A stretch of DNA of 64,000 nucleotides from Calothrix sp. FI2-JRJ7 (GTDB lineage Bacteria > Cyanobacteriota > Cyanobacteriia > Cyanobacteriales > Nostocaceae), in NCBI GenBank assembly GCA_019359675.1, contig JAHHGX010000071.1, forward strand, positions 124,001-188,000. Direction: 5' to 3'. This document shows, one piece after another, positions 1 through 64,000 of the stretch. The notes under the pieces are model-generated. The model was not told the DNA's origin and ran no database searches. It was given only the letters and a program-made list of their open reading frames with translations. Each line of letters starts with the position of its first letter. Position 1 is the first letter of the stretch. The translations under genes were made by a program, and so were the position numbers.

Positions 1-43
1 TCCACCCTAATATTTAGTATGGCTAGTATGGCTACATAAAAGC

Positions 44-574
44 ATGACAAATAAATCTATTTTTATACCCTTATTGTTAAGCTTAGGCTTTTTAGGTGGA
101 TGTGGTGGATATCCACGTATATTAAGCTATCCTTTCGACCCAGGTGGCAGAGGTCTAAATAGTTTTGCATCAGAATTAAATCCTCAAATATCAAGTAGAT
201 ACATCGTTTTCACTAGCGACCGTAGAGGCAGTCAAGATGTATACATGTTTGATACTGCTACACGCTTCTTAATAGATTTACCCGGCTTAAATTCATTTGA
301 TACAATTACCTCACATCCCAGCGTTACAGAAAGCGGTCGCTACATCGTATTTGCCGCAAGTCGTCAAGGTAGGTCAGGTATATTTATTTACGATAGAGAA
401 ACACGACAATCACGCAATTTAACGACAAATTTGCAGGCAGAAGTTCGCAATCCTACTATTAGCGCAGATGGTAGTAGAGTTGCTTTCGAGACAACAGTAA
501 ACGGTCAGTGGGACATTTTGGTTTATGACCGAGCATCAGGACAACCCCTAAACATCCCCCAAGACCCAAGATAA
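44..574 (+). CDS. TolB-like beta-propeller lipoprotein
   Basis: Seen: a 176-residue protein with a lipoprotein signal (Lys4, hydrophobic run 6-17, lipobox Leu17-Gly-Gly-Cys20), so it is probably anchored to a membrane after cleavage before Cys20. Three TolB/WD40-like units follow at roughly residues 47-75, 92-120 and 135-165, each with the pattern Ile-Val-Phe-x-Ser or Val-Ala-Phe followed by Asp-Ile/Val-Tyr and an Asp-Arg turn. Family knowledge: such PD40 repeats form beta-propellers that bind proteins or peptides; this copy is much shorter than TolB, with only three repeats. It stands alone with no tol-pal genes beside it. No Shine-Dalgarno is obvious before the ATG. Exact role unknown. Confidence 0.75.
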   Translation: MTNKSIFIPLLLSLGFLGGCGGYPRILSYPFDPGGRGLNSFASELNPQISSRYIVFTSDRRGSQDVYMFDTATRFLIDLPGLNSFDTITSHPSVTESGRYIVFAASRQGRSGIFIYDRETRQSRNLTTNLQAEVRNPTISADGSRVAFETTVNGQWDILVYDRASGQPLNIPQDPR

Positions 575-584
575 AACATTCCTC

Positions 585-651
585 GTAAGGTGCGTGACGC
601 TACTAGTTCACTAGTTTTACTTCACGATTGTTATGGCGTTACGCACCCTAC
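585..651. repeat. Palindromic repeat family A, copy 1 (67 bp)
   Basis: Outer arms GGTGCGTGACGC and GGCGTTACGCACC face each other around a variable core. One of seven copies in this window (others at 12601, 29681, 41078, 44340, 45557, 55491). It lies between a plus gene and the sdhB end, and its right edge contains the sdhB TAG stop codon. Confidence 0.8.
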
Positions 652-1655
652 CTTTCTTCTTTCTTCACTGCCTCAATTAAAGAACGAACTTGTTGTGTTC
701 CTTCGGATGGCTCAAATTTGAGGGGAAATTTTCCACGCTTGAGCATTCGTAGTCCTAAAGGAGCAATACTCAATAAACCATTAAGGTCTTGAAATTGATT
801 CCCAACTACTTGTAACCCAAATTTACGCTCATCAATCCAACCACCATTTTTGACTAAATCAATTAAAACTTTACGGTGACGAATTGAGCGACCATCGCTT
901 TTTTGTTTCCGCTCTAGAATTTCTTGTTTAATTTTAGTGATTTGATCTAAAGGAGCAACATCCATTGGACAAACGGAGTTGCAATTATAACAACGAGTAC
1001 ACCCCCAAACACCTTTACTATCTTCGTTATAATTTTCTAACCGATTTTCTGTGTTGTTATCGCGTGAGTCTGCTACCATTCGATATGCTTTTGCCAGTGC
1101 ATGAGGCCCTACAAAATTTTGATTCACCTCGCGCGCATTACATTCCGAGTAACAGGCGCCACACATAATACAATTACCAGTTTGGTCAAGAAGTGCGCGT
1201 TCCGATGGTGTTTGTAAAAATTCACGTTCTGGTACTTGCCGTCCAGCAGTACTAACGTATGGCGCCACAGCTTCAAGATTGTCCCAAAAAGGGTTCATAT
1301 CAACTATTAAATCTTTAACAACAGGCATATTACCTAGAGGCGCCACTGTTAAAACTGGTTTACCCTCGTAGGTATTTTTTGTAGCTGTATTTTCATATGA
1401 TGATTTTAAGAACTCAATCTCGCTGCCAACATTTTCTTTACAAGCCAAAGCCGAACGTCCGTTGATTCGCATTGCACAACTACCGCAAATAGTGTTACGG
1501 CAATTCTTACGGAATGCTAGAGTTCCATCTTGCTCCCACTTAATTTTATTAAGGCAGTCGAGGATTGTATTTCCAGGCTCGGTTTCCACCAAATAATCCT
1601 GCACGGAAGGCTCGGAGTTAGGTTTTTGTCGAATAATTTTAAAGATAACTTCCAT
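648..1655 (-). CDS. sdhB: Succinate dehydrogenase/fumarate reductase iron-sulfur subunit
   Basis: Carries electrons from the flavoprotein subunit to quinone in succinate dehydrogenase at the membrane (TCA cycle and respiratory chain). Seen: N-terminal ferredoxin domain with the [2Fe-2S] set CRNTICGSC plus a distal Cys (about residues 52, 57, 60 and 72 from the chosen start), then two C-terminal cysteine clusters, CIMCGACYSEC and CTRCYNCNSVCP, for the [4Fe-4S] and [3Fe-4S] centres. Length, about 335 residues, suits the long cyanobacterial type. I chose the ATG at 1655; a GTG two codons upstream is the alternative. The TAG stop lies in the edge of a palindromic repeat. No sdhA is adjacent, as is common in cyanobacteria. 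Confidence 0.93.
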   Translation of the reverse strand: MEVIFKIIRQKPNSEPSVQDYLVETEPGNTILDCLNKIKWEQDGTLAFRKNCRNTICGSCAMRINGRSALACKENVGSEIEFLKSSYENTATKNTYEGKPVLTVAPLGNMPVVKDLIVDMNPFWDNLEAVAPYVSTAGRQVPEREFLQTPSERALLDQTGNCIMCGACYSECNAREVNQNFVGPHALAKAYRMVADSRDNNTENRLENYNEDSKGVWGCTRCYNCNSVCPMDVAPLDQITKIKQEILERKQKSDGRSIRHRKVLIDLVKNGGWIDERKFGLQVVGNQFQDLNGLLSIAPLGLRMLKRGKFPLKFEPSEGTQQVRSLIEAVKKEER

Positions 1656-1661
1656 ATACAC

Positions 1662-3048
1662 AAATCCTATATATCGTATTTAACTCGGTTAATATCTATT
1701 ACGCACCGCAGTGGCTATTATTCTCACTCAACATCATCAATCCCTGCTCTTTAGTACTGAAGAACCGCAAATGTCTTGATTACAGCACACTTAAGATGAA
1801 AGTTAGGTGCTGAAGAATCTTGCCCAACAAGCGCGCGGACTACAACACTCTGCTCGTAATAAAAGTTCACTTCTATGCCTCCAATTGGTTTGAACATCTT
1901 CCAAGTATAACCATTAAATCTAAATCCATATGCTCAGAATCTGATTCAATTACATAACCGTAATATCCAAGACACTACAAGTTTATAAGAGTTGCTTGGG
2001 CTTACACAGGCAATATTAAGCAGCCATAACAAGCAGATCAACCTCTCCATACCCATAACTCACGTAAAGTCTCCAATATGTAAATATGTTCAAACACGTA
2101 TTTGACACGAACATCAACACTGACCCGTGAGGTTGTAGTTGTTGGATATATAGAATTGTTAAATTGTCTTGCCTCCAAGTCAACATCTCAACCAATACCC
2201 AAGAATTTAGCCTTCGCTGATTCTCATGTTGCCGAAATATGTAAGGCATCGGATGGTGAATTTTGATTTCTTGAGTAGCCAATACTCACCCTAAAGGTAG
2301 AAATTTATATATAAAGTGTATCGTAAATTTAATTCTAAATTAAATAAATATTTTGCTATTATTAGTCCATGCTAGTATTTAATATAAAATAACGGAGTGA
2401 CAAATCGAGTGTAAATCGCCCTGACTGTGCGAATATTACCGCTTTGTTTATTCGTAATTGTAAAGACGTGAAAATATCGTCTTTACATGTACGAGAAAAA
2501 GGTGTATAACCTCAATACCCTCGATATATACTATGCACTGTTCGTTCTTGAAGTGAGTTAATGAATGCGCGCATTCTAAGACTTGTTTCTCGATTTGGGT
2601 AAGTGCAGTCGTTAAAAGCCTGTTCCATGTGCAAGTCTATAACATAGCTGTTATAGAACATGAGCAGGTATCGAATCTTGATGAGCCAAATTTTCCTGAA
2701 TGTAATTCTGGAACTTAGCGCTCCCCTCCTCACAATCTTTCAGCCACCGATTTTACCTTTGTTGGCTTGAAGTCAAATTGCCACATCAATGCCAGTCGTA
2801 GAAAAGAATTCTCTGACCGATGGCGAATGATGGTTACAAATGCCGTAATATTACCGCGTTTCAAACCTGCTGATATTTTTGAACTCTTTTTGTGTAAGGG
2901 AAACCTTCAGAGCAGAAAGTCTCAAAGTTCTTCATAAGCAGGAATCCGCCGTAAGCCTTGGATATGGGCCGCCGTGCAAATTAAAATTGGCTCAATATGT
3001 GGTATTCCATTACCCAGTTAAAACGTTTGGAGACCTTTATAGGATAAT
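1662..3048. other. Long stretch without an intact gene
   Basis: About 1.4 kb between divergent sdhB and cyAbrB. Only short, frame-broken minus-strand coding-like pieces are visible (1751-1965, 2040-2282, 2512-2860). No tRNA, insertion-sequence ends or CRISPR were seen. The part nearest 3058 presumably holds the cyAbrB promoter, which I could not pinpoint. Confidence 0.5.
1751..2282 (-). pseudogene. Decayed coding remnants, unrecognised
   Basis: On the minus strand, one reading piece at 1751-1930 starts YGFRFNGYTWKMFKP and runs about 55 residues to a stop; a second piece in another frame covers about 1930-1965; a third, at about 2040-2190, begins DVDLEARQFNNS. They lie in different frames, separated by stops, with natural-looking residue composition. 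This suggests an old gene broken by frameshifts. I do not recognise the family and chance open frames cannot be excluded. Confidence 0.25.
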
Positions 3049-3057
3049 TTGAATCGA

Positions 3058-3507
3058 ATGAGTGAAACAGCTACCGCGCCATTAACCGGAAAAGCCCTGC
3101 TTGCTAAAGTCAAAGAACTTTCAACTTTACCAAGACGAGAAAGAGCTAAACAATGTGGTTATTACACCACTACTAAAGGTGGTCAAGTACGAGTTAACTT
3201 GACTGATTTTTACGACGCTTTGCTATCGGCTCGAGGAATTCCTTTGAGTCCAGAATCTCCCAAAGATGGTCGTGGTCGTGAACCTACGTACCGTGTTAGT
3301 GTCCATCAAAACGGTCAAATTGTTATTGGTGCAACATATACCAAAGCAATGGGTTTAGAGCCTGGTGATGAGTTTGAAATTAAGCTTGGATACAAACATA
3401 TTCATCTGATTCAAGTTGACGGCGATAAAAAGAGTTCCCAGTTAGAGGACTCAGATATCGACGACGAAGATGAAGATGAAGATGAAGATGAAGATGACGA
3501 AGAGTAA
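3058..3507 (+). CDS. cyAbrB-family transcriptional regulator with acidic tail
   Basis: Cyanobacterial AbrB-like DNA-binding regulator; members (CalA/CalB, Sll0359/Sll0822) act globally on carbon-nitrogen balance, hydrogenase and heterocyst genes. Seen: the family's N-terminal segment LTGKALLAKVKELS, the CGYYT motif, then the AbrB fold at about residues 78-118 with REPTYRVSVHQNGQIVIG. The ATG at 3058 gives the usual family start; an in-frame TTG at 3049 sits closer behind an AGGA and is the alternative. Odd: the last 23 residues are almost all Asp and Glu, encoded partly by a GAAGAT-type hexanucleotide repeat (3466-3500). I cannot decide between the two known paralogue groups. A terminator-like hairpin follows at 3684. 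Confidence 0.9.
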   Translation: MSETATAPLTGKALLAKVKELSTLPRRERAKQCGYYTTTKGGQVRVNLTDFYDALLSARGIPLSPESPKDGRGREPTYRVSVHQNGQIVIGATYTKAMGLEPGDEFEIKLGYKHIHLIQVDGDKKSSQLEDSDIDDEDEDEDEDEDDEE

Positions 3508-3683
3508 ATTTTCAGCAATAGAGTTAATCAACTAGTTTTAACCACAGGCTTACAAACTGTATCGTGTTATAAACGGCACTCTATTGCCGAAATTTTCCCT
3601 ATCTTAAATTTAGCCGATTGATACATTCCCGACACATTACTACGCACGTTGGGAATGAATGCAAAAAATTCAATGTTACTTTT

Positions 3684-3718
3684 AGCAGCTAGAGTCATAT
3701 CTGGCTGCTTTGATTTTT
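3684..3718 (+). terminator. Intrinsic terminator downstream of cyAbrB
   Basis: AGCAGCTAGA and TCTGGCTGCT form a 10-bp stem with one G-U pair around a six-base loop, followed by TTTGATTTTT. It lies 177 bases after the cyAbrB stop, so the transcript may have a long 3' end. Confidence 0.6.
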
Positions 3719-3831
3719 GCTCTTACTTAATCCCAAATATTCTTTCTAAAAATAAAAATAAATAAAATTAATTATAAATAATCACATTGCATCTAGCTTT
3801 TTATTAACACTCTAATATCAAGTTAATACAC

Positions 3832-3852
3832 GTAGGTTGGGTGCAACCCAAC
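3832..3852. repeat. Palindromic repeat family D (GTAGGTTGGGT)
   Basis: Short inverted repeat GTAGGTTGGGT / ACCCAAC just beyond the end of the minus-strand reductase gene. Related copies lie at 20359, 46088 and 54561, with partial ones at 9049 and 43625. The stretch 3508-3831 otherwise holds only the terminator at 3684. Confidence 0.55.
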
Positions 3853-3871
3853 CCCAAAAACTAGAAATTTT

Positions 3872-4993
3872 TTAACTACCACTAAAAGGAGTTAAACGTT
3901 TAATAGCACGACCAGCAACATCTCTATAACGTAGTTGTCCGCAAAGAATTTTGCCCATCAATTGTGGACCACTTGGACGTTTAACACCTAGGTTATACCC
4001 AACGTGAGGCAGACGGTAAAAAAGACTTGCTATTTTTGAAGCCCACGCCATATCGGCGCCCCATTCAGAATTCATAATGTTAGAGTAATTTTCTAGTGCG
4101 TTGATATCACCACTAAGAGCATCATCAATAGCATCACTAGCTTTTAGTCCGCTAAAAATTGACGGACGAATACCTTCAGCAGTCATTGGGTCAACAACAC
4201 AAGCAGCTTCACCAGCTAAAACAGCATTAGTCGTGTGAAGATTTTGTTCACCGTTCCATAAGCACAGAGCATGACCATACTGTTTACATGTACTGACATT
4301 TAAATTAAAGCTCTTGCCATATTCGTCAACGATTTTTTTAAAGTTCTGTGCTTGCCCACCAATAAAAGTGCCGACACCAATCGAATAACCATCAGCTTTC
4401 GGAAAATTCCACGCATACCCGTTTTTAACAATGCCAAATTCCAGGTCTATGACATTTTTTCTTTCAACAATAGCAGGCGCCTCAGCTTCTAAAGCCCCAG
4501 CTAGACGACGTAACCTATCTTTAAAACCAAGCCATTTTGCCATTGGCCCAAAGGCACCATCAGCAGCGATAATATAGCGACCCTGGAAACATCCATTTTT
4601 AGTATTAACTTCCCAGTAATTGCTTTTAAATTCAATACCCGTTACTTCGGTGTTATCGCGTAGTTCGGTGCCTTGCTTTTGAGCCTGCTGAATAATAAAA
4701 TGGTCGAATACATCACGGCGAACTAACCATACTGGCTCTGGTGTTTGTAACTCAACCTCAACAACATCCTCCATTTTCCAAGTACAGCGAATAGTATCAG
4801 CTTTAACCGAAATCGCTGGACTAAAATCAAAGTCAAACCATTCAGCGATCTGAGGAGATACTCCACCACCACAAGGTTTATACCGTGGTAAAGATTCTTT
4901 TTCTATAACTAATACCGAACGTCCCCGCTTGCTCAAATGATACGCAGCAGTTCCACCCGCAGGTCCTGCGCCGACGATTATACAGTCATACAT
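3872..4993 (-). CDS. Geranylgeranyl-reductase-family FAD-dependent oxidoreductase
   Basis: Seen: Rossmann FAD-binding start YDCIIVGAGPAGGTAAYHL (Gly8, Gly10, Gly13), an acidic residue ending the second strand (VIEKES), the substrate-side motif RYKPCGGGVS, and a second FAD motif GEAACVVDPMTAEGIRPS near residue 260. Family knowledge: this is the layout of geranylgeranyl reductases, which use NAD(P)H to saturate prenyl chains of chlorophyll, tocopherol or lipids. At 373 residues it is shorter than typical ChlP (about 405), so I do not call it chlP; it is more likely one of the uncharacterised cyanobacterial paralogues. It is downstream of frr on the same strand with a 150-base gap. Confidence 0.82.
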   Translation of the reverse strand: MYDCIIVGAGPAGGTAAYHLSKRGRSVLVIEKESLPRYKPCGGGVSPQIAEWFDFDFSPAISVKADTIRCTWKMEDVVEVELQTPEPVWLVRRDVFDHFIIQQAQKQGTELRDNTEVTGIEFKSNYWEVNTKNGCFQGRYIIAADGAFGPMAKWLGFKDRLRRLAGALEAEAPAIVERKNVIDLEFGIVKNGYAWNFPKADGYSIGVGTFIGGQAQNFKKIVDEYGKSFNLNVSTCKQYGHALCLWNGEQNLHTTNAVLAGEAACVVDPMTAEGIRPSIFSGLKASDAIDDALSGDINALENYSNIMNSEWGADMAWASKIASLFYRLPHVGYNLGVKRPSGPQLMGKILCGQLRYRDVAGRAIKRLTPFSGS

Positions 4994-5145
4994 AAAATTT
5001 TATACCTACCTGAATAAAGCCTTATCAATAGAAAGTAAAGCTTAAAAAGGGGTAAGAGGATAAAAGCAAAGGAACAAACACCCTTCACCCTTCTCCTTTT
5101 ACCCCGTCCAACAGCCCAAAGTATTAACGAATAACCGAGTTAGAG

Positions 5146-5694
5146 CTAGACAGTAGTAATGTCTTTTTCTTTCTCCGCCAGTAAATCGTTAATTCTAGCA
5201 GTATATTTGTCTGTTAGTTTTTGCAGTTTGTCTTGTAAATCGCGAGATTCATCCTCAGATATTTCTGATGCCTTTTCCTGCTTACGAATCAACTCAACGC
5301 CATCACGACGAATGTTACGAATTGCAACGCGCCCTTCTTCGGCATATTTAGCTGCAATTTTGACAAATTCTTTCCGCCGTTCGGTCGTTAATTGCGGAAT
5401 ATTCAGGCGAATCACAGAACCATCGTTACTGGGCGTTAAACCCACATCCGACAGTGAAATTGCCTTTTCGATGAGAGTTAGTGTGTTTCTATCGTAAGGC
5501 TGAATTAAAATAGTTGTCGCATCTGGAGTACTAATGTTCGCAAGCGATTTCAAAGATGTAGGCGTACCGTAATACTCTACAGAAATTCTGTCGAGTAAAC
5601 TTGAATTCGCGCGCCCAGTGCGAATAGTATTGAAAGACCGTAGCGTAGATTCAACGGTCTTTTGCATGGTACTCTCAGCGTCAGCTAACTTCAC
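5146..5694 (-). CDS. frr: Ribosome recycling factor
   Basis: Releases ribosomes from mRNA after termination together with EF-G. Seen: the full family run from [15 protein letters not shown] through the [15 protein letters not shown] signature and [14 protein letters not shown] to the C-terminal helix ending in LLAEKEKDI. The start is the GTG at 5694: it gives 182 residues, the usual length, and has GGGAGG seven bases before it. A longer frame to 5733 exists but would lie inside pyrH. The gene overlaps the pyrH stop by 14 bases, so translation is probably coupled. pyrH-frr is a conserved order. Confidence 0.95.
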
Positions 5695-6409
5695 AAGAAC
5701 CTCCCACAAGCGTTCCAATCGATTCTCCCACAACTGCGCGGTAAATATTACCGCTAGTGGTTAGATCAAAGACGAGAATCGGAATATTATTCTCCTTACA
5801 TAAGGCTATCGCGGTACTGTCCATTACTCGCAAATCTTTTGCCAAAACGTGAGAATAAGTCAAAGTCTTATAGCGTTTGGCGTCAGGTACTTTCATTGGG
5901 TCAGCATCATAAATACCATCTACTTTTGTAGCCTTGAAAATGACTTCTGCCTCAATTTCAGCCGCGCGTAGTGCCGCAGCAGTGTCGGTGGTAAAAAATG
6001 GGTTTCCAGAACCGGCGCCAAAAATAACCACCCGTCCTTTTTCAAGATGACGGATGGCGCGACGACGAATATAAGGTTCTGCAAGTTCTTGCATGGCAAT
6101 AGCGGTTAAAACTCGTGTCTGTACTCCTATACGTTCAAGGGAGTCTTGGAGTGTCATGGCGTTCATTACCGTGGCAATCATGCCAATGTAGTCAGCGGTT
6201 GCTCTGTCCATTCCTGCCGACGCGGCTTTGACACCTCTAAATATATTGCCCCCCCCTACGACAATAGCGAGTTGAACACCTGTGGCTACTACCTCTGCTA
6301 CTTCTTGTCCTATGTTCTTGACCACTTCGGGGTCAATTCCATAACCCATGTTGCCCATTAGGGCTTCACCGCTCAGTTTAAGTAAAACCCGTCGGTAATG
6401 TGTACCCAT
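5681..6409 (-). CDS. pyrH: Uridylate kinase
   Basis: Phosphorylates UMP to UDP with ATP in pyrimidine nucleotide synthesis, as a cytoplasmic hexamer. Seen: amino-acid-kinase fold with [14 protein letters not shown] at the start, the glycine motif [11 protein letters not shown], the [16 protein letters not shown] helix and the GTGNPFF-like region [15 protein letters not shown]. The ATG at 6409 (MGTHYRR) gives 242 residues, the normal length; upstream codons to 6499 in the open frame look like leader sequence. No good Shine-Dalgarno is visible. The last 14 bases overlap frr. Confidence 0.95.
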
Positions 6410-6502
6410 GAAGTTTCGTTTTATTTCAAAGAAAAAAAGTTGTAATTTCCTCCAATTTAAGATAGCAGTATGACGACAATATGTCTCTACTTGTGACAAA
6501 TT

Positions 6503-7057
6503 TTAGTCACGCCAAATAATTTTTGTGCCGATTGGCTCAGTTTCTGTAATATCTATATTATTGTTACCAAACAGTGACGCTATAGCACTTCTAAGATATC
6601 GTACCTGCACTGCTTCCGGGTTTTCCGGGTTGTCGTCTATTTGCCCACGATATCGTACTCTTCCTTCAGAATCTATTAAAAAACACATTGGCGTAGTCAT
6701 GGCGCCAAAACTGCGGGTTACATCTTGCGTTGAGTCCCATAGGTAGGGAAAGTTAAGTTCATGCTTCTGGGCAAAACCTTTCATCCGGTCAAAACTTTCT
6801 ACTAAGTCTTGGTTAGCAGCGCTGCCATTTACGCCAATTAGCGTAAACCCAAAGCTTGAAAACTCTTGTTGAATTTGTTTCAACCGTTCCAGGTAATGTC
6901 CAACATAAGGGCAGTAGTTGCACATCAAAACGACGCCAACTGCGTAGAACTTTTCGAGATAACGACTGAGATGATGAACCTGCCCGTCAATACCTGGCAG
7001 TTCAAAATCTGGTGCGTAGCTTCCTATCGGAGTATCAGTTGTTAAGCGCGTTTTCAT
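6503..7057 (-). CDS. Thioredoxin-like redoxin (AhpC/TSA-type fold)
   Basis: Seen: a single thioredoxin-fold domain of 184 residues with PDFELPGIDG near residue 16, an active-site Cys46-Asn-Tyr-Cys49-Pro motif after a hydrophobic strand, the cis-Pro region MTTPMCFLIDSEGRVRYRG, and a C-terminal YLRSAI helix. No signal peptide, so probably cytoplasmic. Family knowledge: this type is annotated as thioredoxin family protein or peroxiredoxin-like; the CXXC fits thiol-disulfide exchange, and the substrate is unknown. It lies 94 bases upstream of pyrH on the same strand and could share its transcript. Confidence 0.85.
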   Translation of the reverse strand: MKTRLTTDTPIGSYAPDFELPGIDGQVHHLSRYLEKFYAVGVVLMCNYCPYVGHYLERLKQIQQEFSSFGFTLIGVNGSAANQDLVESFDRMKGFAQKHELNFPYLWDSTQDVTRSFGAMTTPMCFLIDSEGRVRYRGQIDDNPENPEAVQVRYLRSAIASLFGNNNIDITETEPIGTKIIWRD

Positions 7058-7381
7058 TTTCCCCTGGCTTCAAGGAACTAGGAACAAAAATTTGGTTTAA
7101 TGAACATGTCATGCGACCGCATCGAACCGCTTTTTGGTGTAAATGCTTGATATTCGACCATTCTATAAACGTATCTACGCCACCGTACATTGTGAAACTA
7201 CTGAAATTATCCTTTCTCGGATTTATTCTAATTTGTGAAAATTAAGTCTTAAAATATTGTTAACTTATGCCACGGTGCCTGTGAGCGATCAGGGAGGAGA
7301 TGCTCTACTTTGAGATTCATCACTCGACATCCGTTGGCACACCCCAATCGTCAAAAACACATACTATCTCCGGAATAATCT
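7058..7381. other. Intergenic region between divergent genes
   Basis: A 324-base gap between the redoxin (minus) and the GH57 gene (plus). It must hold both promoters. I see no convincing -10/-35 pair, riboswitch or small gene; a GGGAGGAG run at about 7290 is too far from the ATG at 7382 to be its ribosome site. Confidence 0.4.
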
Positions 7382-8971: not shown

Positions 8972-8980
8972 CCTCTTGTA

Positions 8981-54588: not shown

Positions 54589-55485
54589 TTATTCGTCACC
54601 GCTAAATTGAGTGGGTATTTCTAGGGGTATTTGACCTAGAAATCCTTTGCGATAGTCTGTGAGTAGCTGACGTGCGGTGCGTTCGACATCTCCTTTGTAA
54701 CGATGTTCTGCTAGAGCATGAAGATAACCTTCACCTGTATGCTCTGTTGGGTCTAGCTTATAACGCTCGTTTAATGCTTGTTTTGGTAATAGTTCTGGCG
54801 CCACTGCTTCTAAGTAACTAATTATATCAAGAAAAGCGGCGGCGACTAACTGATTATCATACGACGCATCACCGATATCATCGCAAATTGCTAATTTGAC
54901 GGCAGCATCTTGATTTTCTAGCCTTAAAGGAATTACTCCAGGTGCATCGAGTAATTCTAATTCATCAGAAATTCTCACCCAACGTAGCGAACGTGTTACA
55001 CCAGGACGTGCGGCACTTTCAACTACACGCTTTCCTAATATACGGTTAATTAATGCCGATTTTCCAACATTGGGGAAACCAATTACAACCGCACGGACGG
55101 GACGCGGTAGCATTCCTCTGCTTTTGCGACGCTGATTTAATTCTACACCCGCAGCTTGAGCGGCTTTGAGTACTGCTGGTACACCTTGCCCATGTTGAGC
55201 ATTGGTATAGTAGGGGACTTCGCTTTGTCGCTTAAACCAGTTTATCCAGGCTTGCTTCGTTTGCGGTAAAATCATGTCGAAGCGGTTGATTACTAAAACG
55301 CGGGATTTGTTTCCTATCCATTCTAGTAATTGTGGGTGATGGGTAGATACTGGGATACGCGCATCACGCACCTCTAATACCACGTCAACAAGCTTTAGCT
55401 GCTCTTTTAGTTGCTTTTCTGCTTTGGCTATGTGACCTGGGTACCACTGGATAGTATTTAATTTGTAGTTTTGTGTTATTCCCAT
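54589..55485 (-). CDS. ylqF: Ribosome biogenesis GTPase YlqF/RbgA
   Basis: Circularly permuted GTPase that helps late 50S assembly. Seen: 298 residues from the ATG at 55485 (MGITQNYKLNTIQWYPGHI): the KAEKQLKEQLKLVDVVLEVRDARIP segment and the G4-like motif VLVINRFD come first, then G1 GFPNVGKSALINRI, G2-like PGVTRSLRWVR and G3 LLDAPGVIPL, the permuted order typical of this family. The C-terminal helical domain follows. The frame runs on upstream to 55548 but this includes a family A repeat, so I reject it. Confidence 0.93.
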   Translation of the reverse strand: MGITQNYKLNTIQWYPGHIAKAEKQLKEQLKLVDVVLEVRDARIPVSTHHPQLLEWIGNKSRVLVINRFDMILPQTKQAWINWFKRQSEVPYYTNAQHGQGVPAVLKAAQAAGVELNQRRKSRGMLPRPVRAVVIGFPNVGKSALINRILGKRVVESAARPGVTRSLRWVRISDELELLDAPGVIPLRLENQDAAVKLAICDDIGDASYDNQLVAAAFLDIISYLEAVAPELLPKQALNERYKLDPTEHTGEGYLHALAEHRYKGDVERTARQLLTDYRKGFLGQIPLEIPTQFSGDE

Positions 55486-55490
55486 TGTTT

Positions 55491-55557
55491 GTAGGGTGCG
55501 TGACGCCACAACGATCTTACAATAAAATAACAAATGTAATAGCGTCACGCACCCTAC
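55491..55557. repeat. Palindromic repeat family A, copy 7 (67 bp)
   Basis: GTAGGGTGCGTGACGCCA and TAGCGTCACGCACCCTAC; contains at its right edge the TAG stop of the next minus-strand gene. Confidence 0.87.
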
Positions 55558-56738: not shown

Positions 56739-56767
56739 ATTTATAAAAGAGAGCAATAATATAGTTA

Positions 56768-57574
56768 CTACAACCTGCCTCTCTCGTATTCCGCAATAGT
56801 ATTAGCAGAAATACTCGGGTCTGCTGACCAAGGGTTTTTATAGAATCTAAATTTTTGTTTAAGAACTAACCAGAAGAATGGCGCCGCATCGAGCAAATAC
56901 CTCTTCCAGAGTCGAGTCGGTTCAGCGGAAAGTCTATATAACCACTCTAGACCAACTTGGCTCATCCATTTTGGCGCCCGTGTTATTGTTCCTGCTTCAA
57001 AATTGATGGTGGCGCCTATTGCTAAGAAAATTTTGATATTTTTTAATTTATGTCTATACTTAGAAATCCACATTTCTTGCTTGGGGGCGCCTACTCCAAT
57101 TGCTAGAACTGTTGCTCCTGAGCGATTGATTAACTCTATTATGCTTTGACATTCTTTTTCGTTTTTCTCAAACCCCATTGGTGGGGAATAAGTTGCAATA
57201 ATAATATTACGCCCTATTTTGGAATTGATATTACGCTGGGCAGTATATCCGACTTCTCCAATTCCTCCTAACAAAAATATTTTGATATCATCGTCATCTC
57301 TATAATAATTATAAAAAGCTGGAAATAAATCTGAACCAGATATTTTTTCTTGAATGGGTATACCTAAAAACTTAGATGTGAACATAATAATTTTACTATC
57401 GCAAACTATGTAATCTGCTTCTTGATAGGCATCATAAAAATTTAAGTTTCTTTGTAGCTGAATCAGATGGTTTACATTAGGAGTAAATACAATACCACCA
57501 AATTTCAGTTTTTTCAGTAATTGATACATTGTGATGTTATCAATAGTCAAATTGAATAGTTGAACTTGATTCAT
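56768..57574 (-). CDS. WecG/TagA/CpsF family glycosyltransferase
   Basis: Transfers a nucleotide-activated sugar to a lipid-linked sugar at the inner membrane. Seen: GT26 fold of 268 residues: VFTPNVNHLIQLQRN near residue 30, the GSDLFP segment with the conserved Asp, IFLLGGIGEVGYTAQ, VLAIGVGAPKQEMWISKYRH, the GATINFEAGTITRAPKWM motif and the C-terminal GLEWLYRLSAEPTRLWKRYL. Probably membrane-associated via the basic C-terminus. It opens (as the last gene of the transcribed strand) the polysaccharide cluster 56.8-64 kb. Confidence 0.93.
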   Translation of the reverse strand: MNQVQLFNLTIDNITMYQLLKKLKFGGIVFTPNVNHLIQLQRNLNFYDAYQEADYIVCDSKIIMFTSKFLGIPIQEKISGSDLFPAFYNYYRDDDDIKIFLLGGIGEVGYTAQRNINSKIGRNIIIATYSPPMGFEKNEKECQSIIELINRSGATVLAIGVGAPKQEMWISKYRHKLKNIKIFLAIGATINFEAGTITRAPKWMSQVGLEWLYRLSAEPTRLWKRYLLDAAPFFWLVLKQKFRFYKNPWSADPSISANTIAEYERGRL

Positions 57575-57676
57575 TGTCTTATGATATAATTAAGTAGTTA
57601 TTTTAGAAAGCAAGAGACAGTTTGAGCAGAGAAACTGTTTATCTTTCTGCTATTTTCGATAAAATGAGTTACCTCA

Positions 57677-58609
57677 TCAAGTTTTTACCAAAATTCTTTG
57701 GTCTAAAATGTCTAAAATAGTGCTATCAATATCAATATCAAATTTACGTGCGAAATAATATTGATTTTGTTTCATCAAAATATAATAATCCTTGGTTAAA
57801 GTTGCTGGACTACCGTAAGTAGTTTTAGAAAAATCTATATAATGTTTAGATTCATTCGATAAATTGAAAACTTTACTGTTAACTAGTACAGTCTGAATAA
57901 AAGATTCTTCAGGGTTGATTACATATTTATAATGCTCAAGAATATCGGGATGCTTTTGAGTAAACTCATGTATATATTCAAGGCATTTTTTAGAAAGAAT
58001 AGAAAAATAAGAGCCTCCATAACAAATAAATTCATCATTAAAGGGAGATTTAACTTTTCTTCCTATCATCAGCAGACCATAAATAAAATAAATCCGCAAA
58101 TTTGGCTGAAAGTAATTAATGGTTTTTAATGATTTTAAGAATAAGTTTAACCAATTAGGGAAATTGATTAAACTTACTTTATACCTGTATAAGTATCTAT
58201 CATACCCTTGCTTAATAGTCCATGAACTTTTTTTAGAAAATACTTTAAAATATTCAATATAAGCGTCGTAACTATTTGTAGATAAAAAAAGTTCTAGCTC
58301 TGAAATAGATTGAGTTGGATAATCTTGTCCAGTTAGATTAATAAACCAATCAAAATCTAGATTATTACTAAATATCCAGTTGATAGTTGATAAATATTCT
58401 CGAAGTATTGAAAAATCTCCTCTACCTGTTGTGACGTTAAATAAATAAATATTTGAATATTGTTTCAATCTAGATATATCTAGAACGCAATAAGTAGAAT
58501 TATGACTCAGTATAATTATTGAGTTTGGGCTCGAGCTTTTAATATTACGAATAAGTCGATATATTTGCTCTGGATTTTTATAACTTTGAATCAAGAAACA
58601 GATTTTCAT
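57677..58609 (-). CDS. GT14-like glycosyltransferase (beta-1,6-N-acetylglucosaminyltransferase family)
   Basis: Seen: 310 residues from the ATG at 58609 (MKICFLIQSYKNPEQIYRLI). Typical GT14/Branch pieces are HNSTYCVLDIS, GRGDFSILREYL, WFINLTGQDYPTQS, FICYGGSYFSILSKKCLEYI and PEESFIQTVLVNS with the likely catalytic Glu. Very AT-rich coding compared with neighbours, which suggests recent acquisition. The open frame extends upstream to 58684, where it includes a family B repeat piece, so the inner start is chosen. Sugar and acceptor unknown. Confidence 0.82.
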   Translation of the reverse strand: MKICFLIQSYKNPEQIYRLIRNIKSSSPNSIIILSHNSTYCVLDISRLKQYSNIYLFNVTTGRGDFSILREYLSTINWIFSNNLDFDWFINLTGQDYPTQSISELELFLSTNSYDAYIEYFKVFSKKSSWTIKQGYDRYLYRYKVSLINFPNWLNLFLKSLKTINYFQPNLRIYFIYGLLMIGRKVKSPFNDEFICYGGSYFSILSKKCLEYIHEFTQKHPDILEHYKYVINPEESFIQTVLVNSKVFNLSNESKHYIDFSKTTYGSPATLTKDYYILMKQNQYYFARKFDIDIDSTILDILDQRILVKT

Positions 58610-58680
58610 ACTCTGATGGTCTTTTGATTGATGAAAAATTAATAGGGAAGTAATACAAAAAACCGGGTTTTTGGCTAAGG

Positions 58681-59658
58681 TCAAGTGGATAATTCTGGTC
58701 TACGGAAAGTGGCTTTTATAGGGTTTATGAACCAGAGTAGATAAGCTGCAACACCAGTTATTACAGTTTTACCTGGTTCTTCTAATAAGATATGCCAATG
58801 ATTGATTAGAACAAGGTTGAATAGCTTTGCAGCAGTTATTCCGTCACCCAAGCTCACCAAACGACGCGCTGTATAACGCATATGGTAAGCTTTTGCAGCT
58901 TTTTCACAGTGTGCGATGATATCTGGAGCATAGGAACGAGTTTTTTCTATTACCGTTTCTAACGCTTCTAATTGTTTCAAAGCATTCGCAGATAGTCCTC
59001 CCGAAGTTATTCTGTACAAAGTCAATACTTCTGGAATTCCTTCGTGGCGCCAGTGGGTAAGAATAGAGATTCGTAACCAACATTCGATATCTTCAGCACG
59101 ACGCAAAGCTTCATCAAAGTAGTAATCTTCAGTGGCGCCGTACAAATTATCTTGAAATTTAATTGCTTCAAAGACTTCACGTCTTATAACTGCTGCTGAA
59201 CCATTACCGACAGGATTACGACACAGTACATATGAGGGTGTGATGTCATGGAGCTTGCGAGGTCTTTGATAAAGTCCTGTTAGATTGCCCTGTTCATTAA
59301 TAAATGCAGAGTAACAAAAGCTGATTCCTACTGTGGGTGAATTGTCAAGATGTTTGACGTGTTTTTCTAGTTTGTCCGGAGTCCAGATGTCATCCGCATC
59401 TACAAAAGCTATATAGTCACCTTGAGCATGGCGAATGCCTGTATTTCTAGCCCCTGGTAGTCCTCTATTTGCTTGATGAATAATCTTGATTCTCGAATCT
59501 TTGAACTGTCGGCAAATTTCTATGCTGCCATCAAGAGACCCATCATCGATGATGAGAATTTCAAAGTTTTGATAGGTTTGTGACAGAACAGAGTCAACTG
59601 TTGCGGCAACATACTTTTCGGCGTTATATACAGGAATAATTACGGAAACTTTTTTCAT
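58681..59658 (-). CDS. Glycosyltransferase family 2
   Basis: Seen: 325 residues from the ATG at 59658: GT-A fold starting KKVSVIIPVYNAEKYVAATV, with IIDDGSLDGSIEICRQF, a nucleotide-sugar DADD in DYIAFVDADDIWTPDKL, and an acidic substrate end (ECWLRISILTHWRHEGIPEV), then a C-terminal hydrophobic segment that may anchor to the membrane. Closely similar to the next gene (59733-60752), showing a tandem duplication followed by divergence. Adds a sugar to a lipid-linked oligosaccharide, by cluster context. Confidence 0.92.
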   Translation of the reverse strand: MKKVSVIIPVYNAEKYVAATVDSVLSQTYQNFEILIIDDGSLDGSIEICRQFKDSRIKIIHQANRGLPGARNTGIRHAQGDYIAFVDADDIWTPDKLEKHVKHLDNSPTVGISFCYSAFINEQGNLTGLYQRPRKLHDITPSYVLCRNPVGNGSAAVIRREVFEAIKFQDNLYGATEDYYFDEALRRAEDIECWLRISILTHWRHEGIPEVLTLYRITSGGLSANALKQLEALETVIEKTRSYAPDIIAHCEKAAKAYHMRYTARRLVSLGDGITAAKLFNLVLINHWHILLEEPGKTVITGVAAYLLWFINPIKATFRRPELST

Positions 59659-59732
59659 ACAATTAACCAAATCATTTCAGGGAAAATTAATATATAAAGA
59701 GAAACTTTTCAAGTGTAAACAACTTTTGAAAT

Positions 59733-60752
59733 TTATCTTCCAAATTCTTCTTGCATTTTGTGTTTTTGGATAAAGCCTTTTGCTTTTAAAATCAAATGTT
59801 CGACTTGAAAGTACAAAGATTTTGGCATTAGCCAAAGTAAGTAAGACATTACCAATGTCAAACTTGTTGTTAGCGGTTCTGTTAATAGCAGGCGCCAGTT
59901 AAATTTTAAAGCTTGATTAATAACTTTTACGGCAATAGAACCAGCTTGTCTACGTACAGCTTCGCGCGCTAAATCTCGCAATCGATAAGCCATAGCTTGA
60001 TGTTTCCATTTATCTATTAGTTCTGGTGCATATGAGCGTGTCTTTTCATCTATTTTTTCCCAATAATCTATGGCTTTTAGTAAATCCCCCGAACGGCTTT
60101 CTGGATTAACTCTATATAAAGTTAATACTTCAGGTATACCTTCAAACTTCCAAATGGTTTGAATAGCTATACGCAGCCAACACTCAATATCTTCTAGTAC
60201 AGTAAATTTAGTGTCAAAGTAACAATACTCTTCTGTATTAGAGTCTTCTTTAAAAGCTATCGCTTCAAAAACTTCTCGTCTAAACACTCCAGATGAACCA
60301 TTTCCAAGTGGGTTAGTATAGAGTAAATCAGACACTTCAATCTCTTTCAGCTTAGGCATTTGATATATATTTAAGGATTGCCCAAGTTCATTGATAAGAG
60401 CAGAACGACTAAAGCTTATTCCAACGTTAGGAGAATTATCTAAATGTTCTACATGTTTTTCTAACTTTTCTGGTATCCAAATATCGTCTGCATCTATAAA
60501 AGCAAAATAATCACCTTGAGCATGACGAATACCTGTATCTCTTGCTGCTGAAACTCCTTTGTTTTGCTGTCGAATTATTTTAATTCTAGGGTCAGTGAAT
60601 TGTTGACAAGCCTGTATGCTTTGGTCAGGAGAACCATCGTCAATGATTAGAATCTCAATGTTTTTGTAGGTTTGCAATAATACCGATTTAACTGTTAGTG
60701 CAACATACTTTTCAGCATTATATACGGGAATAATTACGGAAACTTTTTTCAT
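59733..60752 (-). CDS. Glycosyltransferase family 2 (paralogue of the next)
   Basis: Seen: 339 residues with the same landmarks as its neighbour: KKVSVIIPVYNAEKYVALTV, IIDDGSPDQSIQACQQF, FAFIDADDIWIPEKLEKHVE, GNGSSGVFRREVFEAI and ECWLRIAIQTIWKFEGIPEV. The first 110 residues are nearly alike; the C-terminal third has drifted, with a membrane-like segment (LTLVMSYLLWLMP). A separate acceptor or sugar is likely. Likely cotranscribed with the rest of the cluster. Confidence 0.92.
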   Translation of the reverse strand: MKKVSVIIPVYNAEKYVALTVKSVLLQTYKNIEILIIDDGSPDQSIQACQQFTDPRIKIIRQQNKGVSAARDTGIRHAQGDYFAFIDADDIWIPEKLEKHVEHLDNSPNVGISFSRSALINELGQSLNIYQMPKLKEIEVSDLLYTNPLGNGSSGVFRREVFEAIAFKEDSNTEEYCYFDTKFTVLEDIECWLRIAIQTIWKFEGIPEVLTLYRVNPESRSGDLLKAIDYWEKIDEKTRSYAPELIDKWKHQAMAYRLRDLAREAVRRQAGSIAVKVINQALKFNWRLLLTEPLTTSLTLVMSYLLWLMPKSLYFQVEHLILKAKGFIQKHKMQEEFGR

Positions 60753-60814
60753 AACTCATTAGCATCTGTATTTAATATTACAGTAAATATGTACAAAATC
60801 AATAAAAAGAAAAA

Positions 60815-61807
60815 CTAAGATTTGATAAGATTTGCCTTTTGGGCTGGCATTGCACGTGAATTAGTAATAAAGTTTAGTATTCTTCCTGCAACTTCAGGTG
60901 TAAGAAAATGCATTGCAATTAACTTAACTACCAGAATAAGAGCGTATTTTTTGAGGATAACTATTGGGGATAAACGAGCAGCTTTTAGCAGGTGATAACG
61001 AGCTTGTGTAACACCTTTGAAACCTGGAACGCGAGTTAAATATAGCTGACTCCAGTATAAGTGACAATTTGCAATACTTTTTGATCTTATTTTTGATAAA
61101 GATTCAATTCCTTGTGGAGCATTTTGAATAGCTCTGTTTATAACTGTGAGTACAGATTTTTCAAACGCTTCGATATTAGTTGAGGCAGAACCTGAAGATA
61201 GACGGTAAAAAACTTGATATTCAGGTACAGCAACAAATGACCATTTGCTCGCTAATCGTAGACACCAATCCCAATCTTCATAATGACTCAAGGTTGTATC
61301 AAAAATACCAACAGAATCGATAGCTGCTTTCCGAACTAGGATATTAGAAGATATACCTATAATAAAATTACCAGCAAGTAATTTAGTATAAACATTTCCT
61401 TCATAATATATAGGGTCACATTTGTGAACTTGCTTGCCGTTTTCACTCATCATATAAGTCAAGCTATAAGCTAACCCTGCTTCAGGATGTTGTTCTAAGG
61501 CTGAATATTGAAGCTCTAATTTATTTTGTGTCCATAAGTCATCGCCATCTAGAAAAGCGATATATTTTCCTCTTGCTACTGAAATTCCACGATTACGCGC
61601 TGTAGAAACGCCACTATTTTCATAAGTAAAAACTTTGACTCTTTCATCTGGAATACTATTTAAAATCTTTAAAGTATCATCTGTAGAGCCATCATTAATA
61701 ACTACAATTTCTAAATCAGAAAAGCTTTGTTTCTGAATTGATTCTATAGTTTCTAATATTGTTCTTTGATTATTATAGGTTGGGATAATTACGGATATAG
61801 TCGGCAT
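60815..61807 (-). CDS. Glycosyltransferase family 2
   Basis: Seen: 330 residues from the ATG at 61807 (MPTISVIIPTYNNQRTILET): GT-A domain with VVINDGSTDDTLKIL, YIAFLDGDDLWTQNKLELQY with the metal DGDD, and HYEDWDWCLRLASKWSF with the probable catalytic ED. C-terminal helices contain a hydrophobic run near residue 285. Less similar to the two downstream GT2 genes. The frame also opens six codons earlier, but the MPTISV start has the normal family length. Confidence 0.92.
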   Translation of the reverse strand: MPTISVIIPTYNNQRTILETIESIQKQSFSDLEIVVINDGSTDDTLKILNSIPDERVKVFTYENSGVSTARNRGISVARGKYIAFLDGDDLWTQNKLELQYSALEQHPEAGLAYSLTYMMSENGKQVHKCDPIYYEGNVYTKLLAGNFIIGISSNILVRKAAIDSVGIFDTTLSHYEDWDWCLRLASKWSFVAVPEYQVFYRLSSGSASTNIEAFEKSVLTVINRAIQNAPQGIESLSKIRSKSIANCHLYWSQLYLTRVPGFKGVTQARYHLLKAARLSPIVILKKYALILVVKLIAMHFLTPEVAGRILNFITNSRAMPAQKANLIKS

Positions 61808-61868
61808 AAATACACTCCAGTACAAAAAAACTATGAAAGTTGGTCGGTGAAAGTAAAATTTAAGTAGA

Positions 61869-63125
61869 TTAAGAATTAGATGTTATTGCATATTTAGCAC
61901 CCCAAATGGTAAAGATTGGCATTGCAACAAAATGAGAAACGAGAACAGCTACTGCGACTGGGACAATTCCCCATTTAACAGCGATTAATATCGATAGTGC
62001 AAAAATTGTGGTAAAAATAACACTCCATTTGACATTAATATCTGTTCTATCTACAGCTTGTAACAGTGTTGAAGTTGCTATTGCAAAGGGACGTGGTAAA
62101 GCGGAAAGACAAATTAAGACTAGAACTGGAATACCTACTACCCATTTTTGTCCAAAAATTATTGGCACATAGAATGGCGCCAGACTCGATTGCACAATTA
62201 CTAACGGTACAAACACCGCTGCAATAGTTTTTAAACCATCTAAATATCGTTTTTTGAGGTCTTGTATATTACCGCGCGCAGCACAAAGATGAGGTAGTAA
62301 AGCAATAATAAATGAATTTATGACACTTAGACTAATCCCTAACCCAGCATTAAAGGCAAAATAGTAAATTCCTAAAGCGTTAATTCCTAAAAATCTTCCT
62401 ACAATTAGGTAGTCTAGATTGTTTCGGAGATTATCTAATAACTGTACAGTTAATATATTTCTACAAAATACGAATATTTCTTTCCAACGATAAAGTGTAA
62501 AAGTACGTTTTGGGCGCCAGGAACTGTATTTGTAAGCAAAAAATAGCCATATAAAAGGAGAAGAGATAACTGAGGGTAATACAATTGCCCACAAACCCAT
62601 GCCTGATGCCGCTAAACACAGTGTTATTAAATTATTAATGGCTGAATCGGTAGTTTGAGTTAACGCCATTAAATTCATTCGATTTTCTCGTTCAATCAAT
62701 GCCCATTGAATAACAAAGTTGGGGACGATTAAATGATAAAAAGCAACAACACATATTGGCAAAATAATTTCATTTGATTTGTAGAACCAAGCTATAGGAA
62801 AAGCTGCCGCACATTGAAAAATAAAAATAAGAATACAAAATATCCAATTGAGGCAATAAGATGTGTTGATTAAATCATCTAAATCTTTTTCATTAGCTTG
62901 AATAAGTTTACTTGCAATTCCAAATTTAAGTGATAAAACAACCGCGAATTCTCTAACAGTGAATATTATCGCTGCTAGTCCGTAATCATGTGGAGATAAT
63001 AAACGCGCAATAACTACCGTAGTCACTAAACGAAAAACTCGATTAAGAAACTCTCCTCCAGCTAAAAAACTAAGATTACGGACAAATTCGTTAGAAAACC
63101 TTTTTTTGATTTTATTAATTAACAT
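61869..63125 (-). CDS. Oligosaccharide flippase (Wzx-like, MATE/MVF fold)
   Basis: Moves lipid-linked oligosaccharides across the inner membrane. Seen: 418 residues, about 12 hydrophobic helices; typical start RNLSFLAGGEFLNRVFRLVT, RLLSPHDYGLAAIIFTVREF, NNLDYLIVGRFLGINALGIY and YYFAFNAGLGISLSVINSFI. ATG at 63125 is chosen since AGGTG lies close before it; a GTG at 63137 coincides with that ribosome site. Family knowledge: the position beside a polymerase and glycosyltransferases is classic Wzx/Wzy-dependent export. Confidence 0.92.
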   Translation of the reverse strand: MLINKIKKRFSNEFVRNLSFLAGGEFLNRVFRLVTTVVIARLLSPHDYGLAAIIFTVREFAVVLSLKFGIASKLIQANEKDLDDLINTSYCLNWIFCILIFIFQCAAAFPIAWFYKSNEIILPICVVAFYHLIVPNFVIQWALIERENRMNLMALTQTTDSAINNLITLCLAASGMGLWAIVLPSVISSPFIWLFFAYKYSSWRPKRTFTLYRWKEIFVFCRNILTVQLLDNLRNNLDYLIVGRFLGINALGIYYFAFNAGLGISLSVINSFIIALLPHLCAARGNIQDLKKRYLDGLKTIAAVFVPLVIVQSSLAPFYVPIIFGQKWVVGIPVLVLICLSALPRPFAIATSTLLQAVDRTDINVKWSVIFTTIFALSILIAVKWGIVPVAVAVLVSHFVAMPIFTIWGAKYAITSNS

Positions 63126-63161
63126 TGGCAAATTCACCTGTATCTATTATTTAATTTGACT

Positions 63162-64000
63162 TTAGTTATATACAATGCGAACTTTGCCTTTATTTGCAAG
63201 ATTCCAAATATCTAACTTGTTAAGAGTGGAGTGCATTGAAATTGTAATTGTTACATAAAGCAACCAGTGAATTGTGCCTATCATAAAACGACTTTCAGAC
63301 AAATTCATTAGTACTAGGCAAGTCAGGTATAGTAACGGAACAAGACCTTCTGCACCTTGAACATGGCGTACCCAAATTAATGCTTTTAAGCTAATAGTAA
63401 GTAAACTAATTACTAAAGCAATCAATCCAATTAAACCTAAACTAAGGTAAAGGTCAAGAAAACCATTGTGAGCATGAATTGGCTCAAATCCCCCTCCTAT
63501 TTCTCTCCAAACATCTGCCGTTTCTCCTTCCCATTTACCTAACCAAAACGTTTCATAGCCATAACCCAGCCAAGGACGCTCTTGAATTTTGTTGAAAACT
63601 ACAGGCCAAATTTCTGTACGACCAGTAAAAGTCATATCTCTACCCAAGTTGTTTAAAATAGATTCTGCATTGCTTACCAATAGTAAAGAAGTAACCCCAC
63701 TAATTAAAATTGTGATAATCAAAAATGGTAATGCTTTTGTATGATTCCAACGCAAAGCTTTAACGAAAGGAGTCAGAACCATTACTATTAATACAACGAC
63801 TAGAGCAGTTTGTGATTTTGAGCCTAAGATTACCGCTGTTGATATGATAAACCCAACCCACATTATTTTACGAAATTTAGTATTACTTATTGCATTTAAA
63901 AAGAAAGTTACTGCACTCAAACTTGTAATGTTTCCCAGGTCGTTTTTATGGACGAAAACACCTCGCCAAGCACCTGTATGTATTACGTCTTCTATATTGG
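63162..64000 (-). CDS. O-antigen ligase/polymerase (Wzy/WaaL-like), partial
   Basis: Runs off the right end of the window, so the N-terminus is missing; the frame is open to base 64000 (reading WRGVFVHKNDLG just before 63920). Seen: several transmembrane helices, GRDMTFTGRTEIWPVVFNKI, ERPWLGYGYETFWLG and PIHAHNGFLDLYLSLGLIG, all typical of the Wzy_C/O-antigen-ligase domain with the conserved HxxH-N region. The codon TTG at 63920 is only an internal methionine-like start of the frame, not a gene start. It should polymerise the repeat units or ligate the finished chain. Confidence 0.9.
   Translation of the reverse strand, partial: NIEDVIHTGAWRGVFVHKNDLGNITSLSAVTFFLNAISNTKFRKIMWVGFIISTAVILGSKSQTALVVVLIVMVLTPFVKALRWNHTKALPFLIITILISGVTSLLLVSNAESILNNLGRDMTFTGRTEIWPVVFNKIQERPWLGYGYETFWLGKWEGETADVWREIGGGFEPIHAHNGFLDLYLSLGLIGLIALVISLLTISLKALIWVRHVQGAEGLVPLLYLTCLVLMNLSESRFMIGTIHWLLYVTITISMHSTLNKLDIWNLANKGKVRIVYN

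Follow-up and report, generated by a model that had tools for sequence, protein, structure and literature searches.

The window considered here is a stretch of 64,000 nucleotides (64 kb) from Calothrix sp. FI2-JRJ7 (assembly GCA_019359675.1, contig JAHHGX010000071.1, positions 124,001 to 188,000), and the element under study is the palindromic hexamer GGCGCC, which is scattered through its genes and the gaps between them. By direct count the window holds 108 copies, each present on both strands since the word is a palindrome; 101 lie within open reading frames (ORFs), called mechanically at a length of at least 90 amino acids, and seven lie outside. At the measured GC content of 38.8%, 3.4 copies would be expected from independent bases and 5.8 from a first-order Markov chain (4.7 and 2.3 from first- and third-order chains, respectively, when the sites are masked), and GGCGCC has the highest ratio of observed to expected counts (O/E) among the 64 palindromic hexamers. 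The unmasked third-order chain predicts 17.0 copies, a high value because the GGCGCC sites inflate their own sub-words. HIP1 (GCGATCGC), a highly iterated palindrome (HIP), does not occur in the window. The initial annotation had put the number of GGCGCC sites at about 105–110, described them as massively over-represented in genes and gaps alike, and reported HIP1 as absent; the exact counts bear out each of these statements, while its estimate of about 40% GC was slightly high.

GGCGCC in the genome and across the genus

The over-representation extends to the whole 8.66-Mb genome, which contains 14,889 copies of GGCGCC (1.72 per kb) and 8 of the reversed word, CCGCGG. Because CCGCGG is itself avoided, the fair comparison is with a Markov expectation: in 458 kb of the genome, 742 sites stand against 43.3 expected, a 17-fold excess despite the self-inflation of the model. 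Overall, the hexamer is roughly 20 times more frequent in this cyanobacterium than base composition predicts. HIP1 does not reach a normal density beyond the window either, with 31 copies in the entire genome (and 51 of its reversed word). These HIP1 remnants were considered as marks of foreign islands and rejected as such, as the four flanks examined (L001–L004) hold 3–5 GGCGCC per 3 kb, about the usual density. In the 458-kb sample, GATC (O/E 0.12) and GGCC (O/E 0.13) are both strongly avoided.

Table 1. Features of the window and the candidate methyltransferase gene, the latter in coordinates of its own contig.
Feature	Position	Strand	Remark
GGCGCC, 108 copies	1155..62518	both (palindrome)	direct count; 8 to 19 per 8 kb
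GGCGCC outside called ORFs, one of seven	16298..16303		mechanical ORF calls
GGCGCC outside called ORFs, other six	starts 31537, 34099, 35608, 40244, 40333, 47013		mechanical ORF calls
HIP1 (GCGATCGC) absent, core words nearly so	1..64000		GCGATCGC 0; CGATCG 1; GATC 16 vs. 147 expected
L006, predicted C5-methyltransferase, 319 amino acids	G000:C79:135478-136434	minus	PF00145, E 7e-66

A set of 217 genomes of the family includes seven of the window's genus, which is taken to be Dulcicalothrix from the membership of D. desertica PCC 7102: the window genome (G000), D. desertica PCC 7102 (G060), Calothrix PCC 7103 (G061), HK-06 (G062), NIES-4105 (G063), the metagenome-assembled genome (MAG) C42_A2020_038 (G064), and PCC 7716 (G065). 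All seven carry 7,475–20,380 copies of GGCGCC and the other 210 genomes, from 55 genera, carry 0 to 1,053, so that the genus is separated completely. PCC 7103 is about 95% identical to the window genome in aligned stretches, and the trait is kept in NIES-4105 and the MAG, which are about 13% and 18% divergent from it in aligned DNA. The abundance of GGCGCC is a trait inherited genus-wide.

The window is a fresh case of a known palindrome and not a new one, because GGCGCC has been described as the alternate HIP of the congener Calothrix PCC 7103 (Elhai, 2015; PMC4390886); literature searches for the word turned up nothing further. The two cases share the hexamer, the loss of HIP1 and GATC, and methyltransferases of GRCGYC type, and the passages of Elhai (2015; PMC4390886) on that strain likewise recognize no GGCGCC-specific enzyme. 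The earlier description drew on one strain and on 19 kb of Calothrix D253 and reported two methyltransferases belonging to different branches, whereas here seven of seven genus genomes share one universal methyltransferase at one locus. Exceptional HIPs were there held to be sporadic, with HIP1 alone persisting (Elhai, 2015; PMC4390886); the enrichment in all seven genomes contradicts this view for the present case.

A candidate methyltransferase

The search for C5-methyltransferases (PF00145) in the window's genome returned nine matches, representing five whole proteins and three fragments. One of the whole proteins, L006, is encoded on contig C79, outside the window (Table 1). Its orthologues occur in all seven genus members at 81–100% identity (the HK-06 copy is split by a contig end), and in all seven the gene lies downstream of a RuBisCO-like gene (six cut-out loci and HK-06). 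The ratio of nonsynonymous to synonymous substitution rates is 0.08–0.12 in six pairwise comparisons. The catalytic motifs PCQ, ENV, QxRxR, and GNAVP are present in invariant alignment columns, and the target-recognition stretch, RRGIFSIDEPSPTI, has a TI/TL motif and an upstream R (the residue spacing is our own reading against part of PMC2413257). This stretch is conserved, with a small residue (G or A) at the column for the degenerate position in seven of seven aligned rows, that of L006 included.

Homologues outside the genus are 54–71% identical to L006, an Escherichia coli plasmid homologue is annotated as hindVM, and 50 family genomes beyond the genus encode a full-length homologue (up to 71% identity). 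The homologue adjoins an RE_HindVP-like gene in 17 of the 23 such loci that were cut out; Pfam confirmed three of three neighbors tested, and the R.BsaHI motif SPERRFD is found in 17 of 17. The HindVP endonuclease profile (PF09519) matched none of the seven genus members, compared with 43 of the 217 family genomes. When genomes are classed by these genes (seven with partial genes left out), the median number of GGCGCC is 5 in the 37 with both methyltransferase and PF09519, 94 (range 2–277) in the 13 non-genus genomes with a full-length methyltransferase and no PF09519, and 37 in the 153 with no methyltransferase of the M.HindV family. The low counts where both genes are present indicate that the target of this family includes GGCGCC.

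By sequence, then, L006 is a solitary predicted C5-methyltransferase of the M.HindV/M.BsaHI family, probably of GRCGYC type, a specificity that includes GGCGCC. The GGCGCC-specific cytosine methyltransferase anticipated in the initial annotation was thus found in part: there is a candidate enzyme of the right class, although its specificity is probably the broader GRCGYC. In GRCGYC, the base methylated by M.BsaHI is the central C (PMC2413257); according to the passages of Elhai (2015; PMC4390886) on such enzymes, the methylated base was known for none of this specificity. Two other C5-methyltransferases were rejected. L008 is present in all seven genus members but also in 161 of the 210 other family genomes (168 of 217 in all), and L005, a 61% paralogue, occurs in only some genus members and is not a universal cause. 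Genes of L005 type, which corresponds to the second of the two methyltransferase types of PCC 7103, are found on plasmids in NIES-4105, on contig C38 of the window genome, and in PCC 7716, where a plasmid copy is broken and a chromosomal one is also present.

Conservation of sites and differences between replicons

Losses and gains of GGCGCC were counted in an alignment of three contigs of the window genome (C31, C79, and C71; 560 kb) with PCC 7102, PCC 7103, and PCC 7716, comprising 292,607 four-way positions at 94–95% identity. A tip change is one in which a single genome differs and the other three agree, and expected changes were derived from trinucleotide and codon-position rates outside GGCGCC. 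The site was lost in 128 of 1,338 site-lineages, 98 times by a change of the inner cytosine (C3) to T, against 56.7 expected (O/E 1.73, 95% confidence interval 1.40–2.11). All other losses were far rarer than predicted (30 vs. 140.7; O/E 0.21, 0.14–0.30), at third codon positions as well (21 vs. 110.4), and a uniform factor of 0.21 fits the eight other classes of loss (chi-square 10.9, 7 degrees of freedom, p = 0.15). This residual ratio is the lowest of 158 G+C-rich hexamers. Their median is 0.63, so the model over-predicts losses generally, and the suppression at GGCGCC is about 3-fold relative to typical words (4.7-fold relative to the model). Gains were in excess (9 vs. 1.35 expected; O/E 6.7, 3.1–12.7), with six from GGTGCC (0.57 expected) and two from GACGCC in 10 opportunities (0.06 expected).

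Only C to T at the inner cytosine escapes the suppression of losses; changes at C5 and C6 do not. Changes at C3 comprise 121 C to T and 4 C to A or G in GGCGCC, compared with 38 and 13 in other GGCG words (p = 3e-5). Outside third codon positions, C to T affects 33 of 1,825 positions in GGCGCC and 11 of 2,010 in other GCGC words (p = 4e-4), and methylation of GCGC in general was rejected because of this lower rate. An explanation by simple hypermutability of C3 was also rejected, there being no significant excess over other GGCG words. GGCGCC is conserved at the level of the motif, even at silent positions, with a leak resembling that of 5-methylcytosine (5mC), and the pattern is, indirectly, what methylation of the inner cytosine combined with maintenance of the motif would give. 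Conservation extends to more distant relatives: NIES-4105, at 90.4% identity, retains 93 of 117 sites common to the four genomes (a fraction of 0.55 would be expected for independent positions), and in a two-genome version of the comparison 159 of 208 sites survive, a larger share than for the other hexamers among the 10 compared. In the MAG, 35 of 65 sites are kept.

The density of sites differs between replicons. In NIES-4105, 320 kb of the chromosome holds 1.4–1.6 GGCGCC per kb, and 143.9 kb sampled from plasmid 2 (366 kb; AP018292.1) holds 459 sites against 7.7 expected (2.7–3.5 per kb); in non-coding DNA the figures are 4.48 per kb for plasmid 2 and 0.92. On this plasmid, 454 of 458 sites stand in unique 18-base contexts and are therefore not copies of a repeat. 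Contig C38 of the window genome, which carries L005, is 73–79% identical to plasmid 2 in four aligned pieces over 900 bases and holds 39 sites in 11.9 kb (3.29 per kb), compared with 20.4 expected at genome density (p = 1.6e-4). The family to which these replicons belong (L254, L256, and L258 of AP018292.1; L005 and L259 of G000:C38) has about twice the GGCGCC density of the chromosome; its genes include a phage-like primase/helicase type, an HNH type, and one annotated as RNA polymerase beta'. Plasmid 2 has its own M.HindV-family gene; plasmid 1 of NIES-4105 has an intact M.HindV-type gene beside a transposase, yet only 1.12 sites per kb in 40 kb, and plasmid p1 of PCC 7716, with its broken methyltransferase copy, has 1.31. 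A resident methyltransferase gene is thus not sufficient to make a plasmid dense, it is doubtful that the gene is the cause of the density of plasmid 2, and no single cell-wide set point predicts the differences.

Maintenance of the motif

We consider it likely that GGCGCC is the alternate HIP of the whole genus, that an orphan enzyme of M.HindV/M.BsaHI type methylates its inner cytosine, and that a process directed at the motif maintains the sites. L006, which has no HindVP partner and is fixed beside the RuBisCO-like gene, would produce GG(5mC)GCC; deamination of the methylated base would turn sites into GGTGCC or GGCACC; and a process aimed at the motif itself would keep and re-create them. 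Such a process is proposed because losses of other kinds fall short of expectation about 3- to 5-fold, silent positions included, and gains exceed it about 7-fold. The sites may be maintained by selection for something that the methylated motif does or, with about equal probability, by a methylation-linked bias of repair or gene conversion favoring the motif; a ratchet starting from GRCGYC would agree with the gains from GACGCC and with the depletion of GACGTC, so that motif-directed conversion could be at work. From sequence comparison we infer the activity of L006, the methylation of GGCGCC in the cell, and the identity of the methylated base. The suggestion in the initial annotation that GGCGCC is an alternate highly iterated palindrome, built on a six-base core and matched by an orphan methyltransferase, is supported by the abundance of GGCGCC, the low number of HIP1, and the solitary gene.

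Similar to HIP1, GGCGCC is a G+C-rich palindrome present in many copies together with an orphan methyltransferase, although it has a six-base core, the methyltransferase is of another type, and GATC is avoided (O/E 0.12). L006 belongs to the same methyltransferase family as those of the HindV, BsaHI, and HgiDI restriction-modification systems (GRCGYC); unlike these, the genus has no endonuclease gene by profile search, and the sites are enriched, not avoided. The Dcm/Vsr system of E. coli, with CCWGG, also combines an orphan C5-methyltransferase with an over-represented target, but the genus lacks Vsr (PF03852, zero of seven members) and the enrichment of GGCGCC is far stronger. Xu, Lawrence, and Durand have reportedly written on HIP1 selection. 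In most cyanobacteria, HIP1 occurs in many copies and is recognized by orphan GATC- or CGATCG-specific methyltransferases, and the function and multiplication of HIPs is an old open question (Elhai, 2015; PMC4390886). The palindrome was known from a congener; its genus-wide inheritance, the concrete orphan gene, the motif-level conservation with a methylation-like leak, the evidence against a plain mismatch-repair model, and the plasmid excess are new. The genus offers a clean second HIP system, with one hexamer and one universal candidate methyltransferase, congeners at 5% divergence that allow gains and losses to be counted, and replicons that differ in density, and the question of HIP function becomes testable in Dulcicalothrix.

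Several observations weigh against the proposed methylation and maintenance. The rate of C to T in GGCGCC (121 of 2,965) is not significantly higher than in other GGCG words (38 of 1,175; p = 0.21), and what points to 5mC is that C to T alone escapes the suppression. Tip losses exceed gains by 128 to 9, which may mean either that the losses are transient, so near the species boundary, or that the sites are slowly decaying. A solitary methyltransferase is insufficient and at most necessary, given the 13 non-genus genomes that have one without HindVP and without an excess of sites. The search for methyltransferases in the genome covered the C5 type. Furthermore, enrichment over the reversed word recurs in a few other genomes among 388 sampled from the order, and in two notable ones (G377, 3,403 vs. 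13; G224, 2,493 vs. 38) no close M.HindV-family gene was found, so other routes to enrichment exist.

Among the alternatives, an artefact of composition or codon usage, in which G+C-rich codon pairs happen to yield the word, has practically no probability. Of 909 sites in 560 kb, 785 do fall within called genes, and 431 of these encode Gly-Ala as GGC-GCC, but the 431 come from 801 Gly-Ala pairs for which 12.4 would be expected, both codons are rare elsewhere (GGC 0.13 and GCC 0.12 of the codons for their amino acids), all three reading frames are used, and non-coding DNA holds 124 sites against 5.6 expected. In the window genome the motif encodes about 54% of Gly-Ala pairs and about 53% of the X-Ala-Pro triplets that could contain it; the shares are 52–60% in PCC 7103 and PCC 7716, 49 and 55% in NIES-4105, and 43 and 51% in the MAG. 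In E. coli, Vsr repair enriches CCWGG, and a comparable very-short-patch repair, with a Vsr-like nuclease turning GGTGCC mismatches back to GGCGCC, would account for the raised gains from GGTGCC (6 vs. 0.57). We regard it as very improbable: profile searches for Vsr (PF03852) gave matches in none of the genus members and in one of the 217 family genomes, GGTGCC/GGCACC is not depleted (132 vs. 105 expected in 458 kb; 98 vs. 23 on plasmid 2), and the suppressed losses are at other positions. The motif might instead be a recognition tag acting in trans, as a DNA-uptake or self-recognition signal, a recombination signal, or a nucleoid-protein site, with methylation incidental or regulatory. Motif-limited conservation, random spacing, and presence on the plasmids sampled agree with this, but no protein is known to bind it, any reader would have had to switch specificity from HIP1 to GGCGCC, as Elhai (2015; PMC4390886) notes, and densities differ two- to three-fold between replicons; we hold a tag to be quite improbable.

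The model of Elhai is unlikely, if by no means negligible. It holds that mismatch repair directed by G(5mC) favors new G(5mC) sites as a by-product, the motif having no function of its own; that sites rise to about one per 1000 nt, every base then being within reach of a site; and that the process may initially have depended on a second GRCGYC methyltransferase (Elhai, 2015; PMC4390886). Gains at about 7 times expectation, including the two in 10 from GACGCC, are in its favor, although selection would give gains too, as are the depletion of GACGTC in the 458-kb sample, with GACGTC and GACGCC among the depleted words overall, and the methylation of the inner cytosine by M.BsaHI, which the model requires (PMC2413257). 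Against it, proximity to a site does not lower the substitution rate (400 vs. 330.6 within 10 bp, O/E 1.21; beyond 800 bp, O/E 0.94), although a saturated genome may show no gradient; spacing is near exponential, with no sign of even coverage (906 gaps, mean 615, coefficient of variation 0.97; 20.2% above 1000 vs. 19.7% expected); and densities of 1.72 per kb in the genome and 2.7–3.5 per kb on the plasmid exceed the set point. In both PCC 7102 and the MAG a single M.HindV-type gene exceeds 50% identity, which makes a second copy dispensable. The unprotected DNA near sites and their random spacing weaken a plain mismatch-repair model. A further possibility, speculative and in our view decidedly doubtful, is a sequence ratchet that a methyltransferase drives with a strength particular to each replicon: DNA with a long-resident, well-expressed M.HindV-type gene would be rewritten toward GG(5mC)GCC through repair or conversion directed at the motif, and the plasmid 2/C38 family would represent its extreme, perhaps even the origin of the whole system. 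Plasmid 1, which has such a gene but a low density of sites, speaks against this, and residence time or expression would have to differ.

The 21% substitution excess within 10 bp of conserved GGCGCC in the four-way alignment could reflect local repair at sites or codon compromise. Elsewhere in the order, five genomes of another family (G377, G224, G252, G274, and G398; 6–7 Mb) hold 1,031–3,403 GGCGCC against 10–38 reversed words, with no close M.HindV-family gene found in any of them, and possibly represent a second, independent GGCGCC palindrome. In G346 (872 GGCGCC vs. 9 reversed words), an M.HindV-type gene (L248, on contig C17; 63%) lies between another C5-methyltransferase gene and that of the acetolactate synthase small subunit, with no HindVP seen within 3.8 kb. 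G273 has 9,489 GGCGCC and an M.HindV-type gene (L249/L250), with no HindVP among four neighbors tested by Pfam, and four genus mates in the order sample have about 30 times fewer GGCGCC. It is a doubtful second independent case: in 24 kb, at 52.6% G+C, the excess is only 3.7-fold (47 vs. 12.6), and AGCGCC/GGCGCT is more enriched (92 vs. 17.5). A scan of viral contigs with the G273 enzyme gave three loci.

In the window and in contigs C31, C79, and C71 of its genome, many palindromic hexamers are nearly absent (GTGCAC, GTCGAC, CCGCGG, and CCATGG, 0 copies in 458 kb; TTCGAA and TGCGCA, 1 each), which, together with the avoidance of GATC, suggests heavy restriction, past or present. Dispersed repeats of about 100 bases occur in the window at 25276-25388, 30703-30803, and 41045-41166; they resemble small mobile elements, are 79–100% identical among copies, and have many further copies elsewhere in the genome and in congeners.

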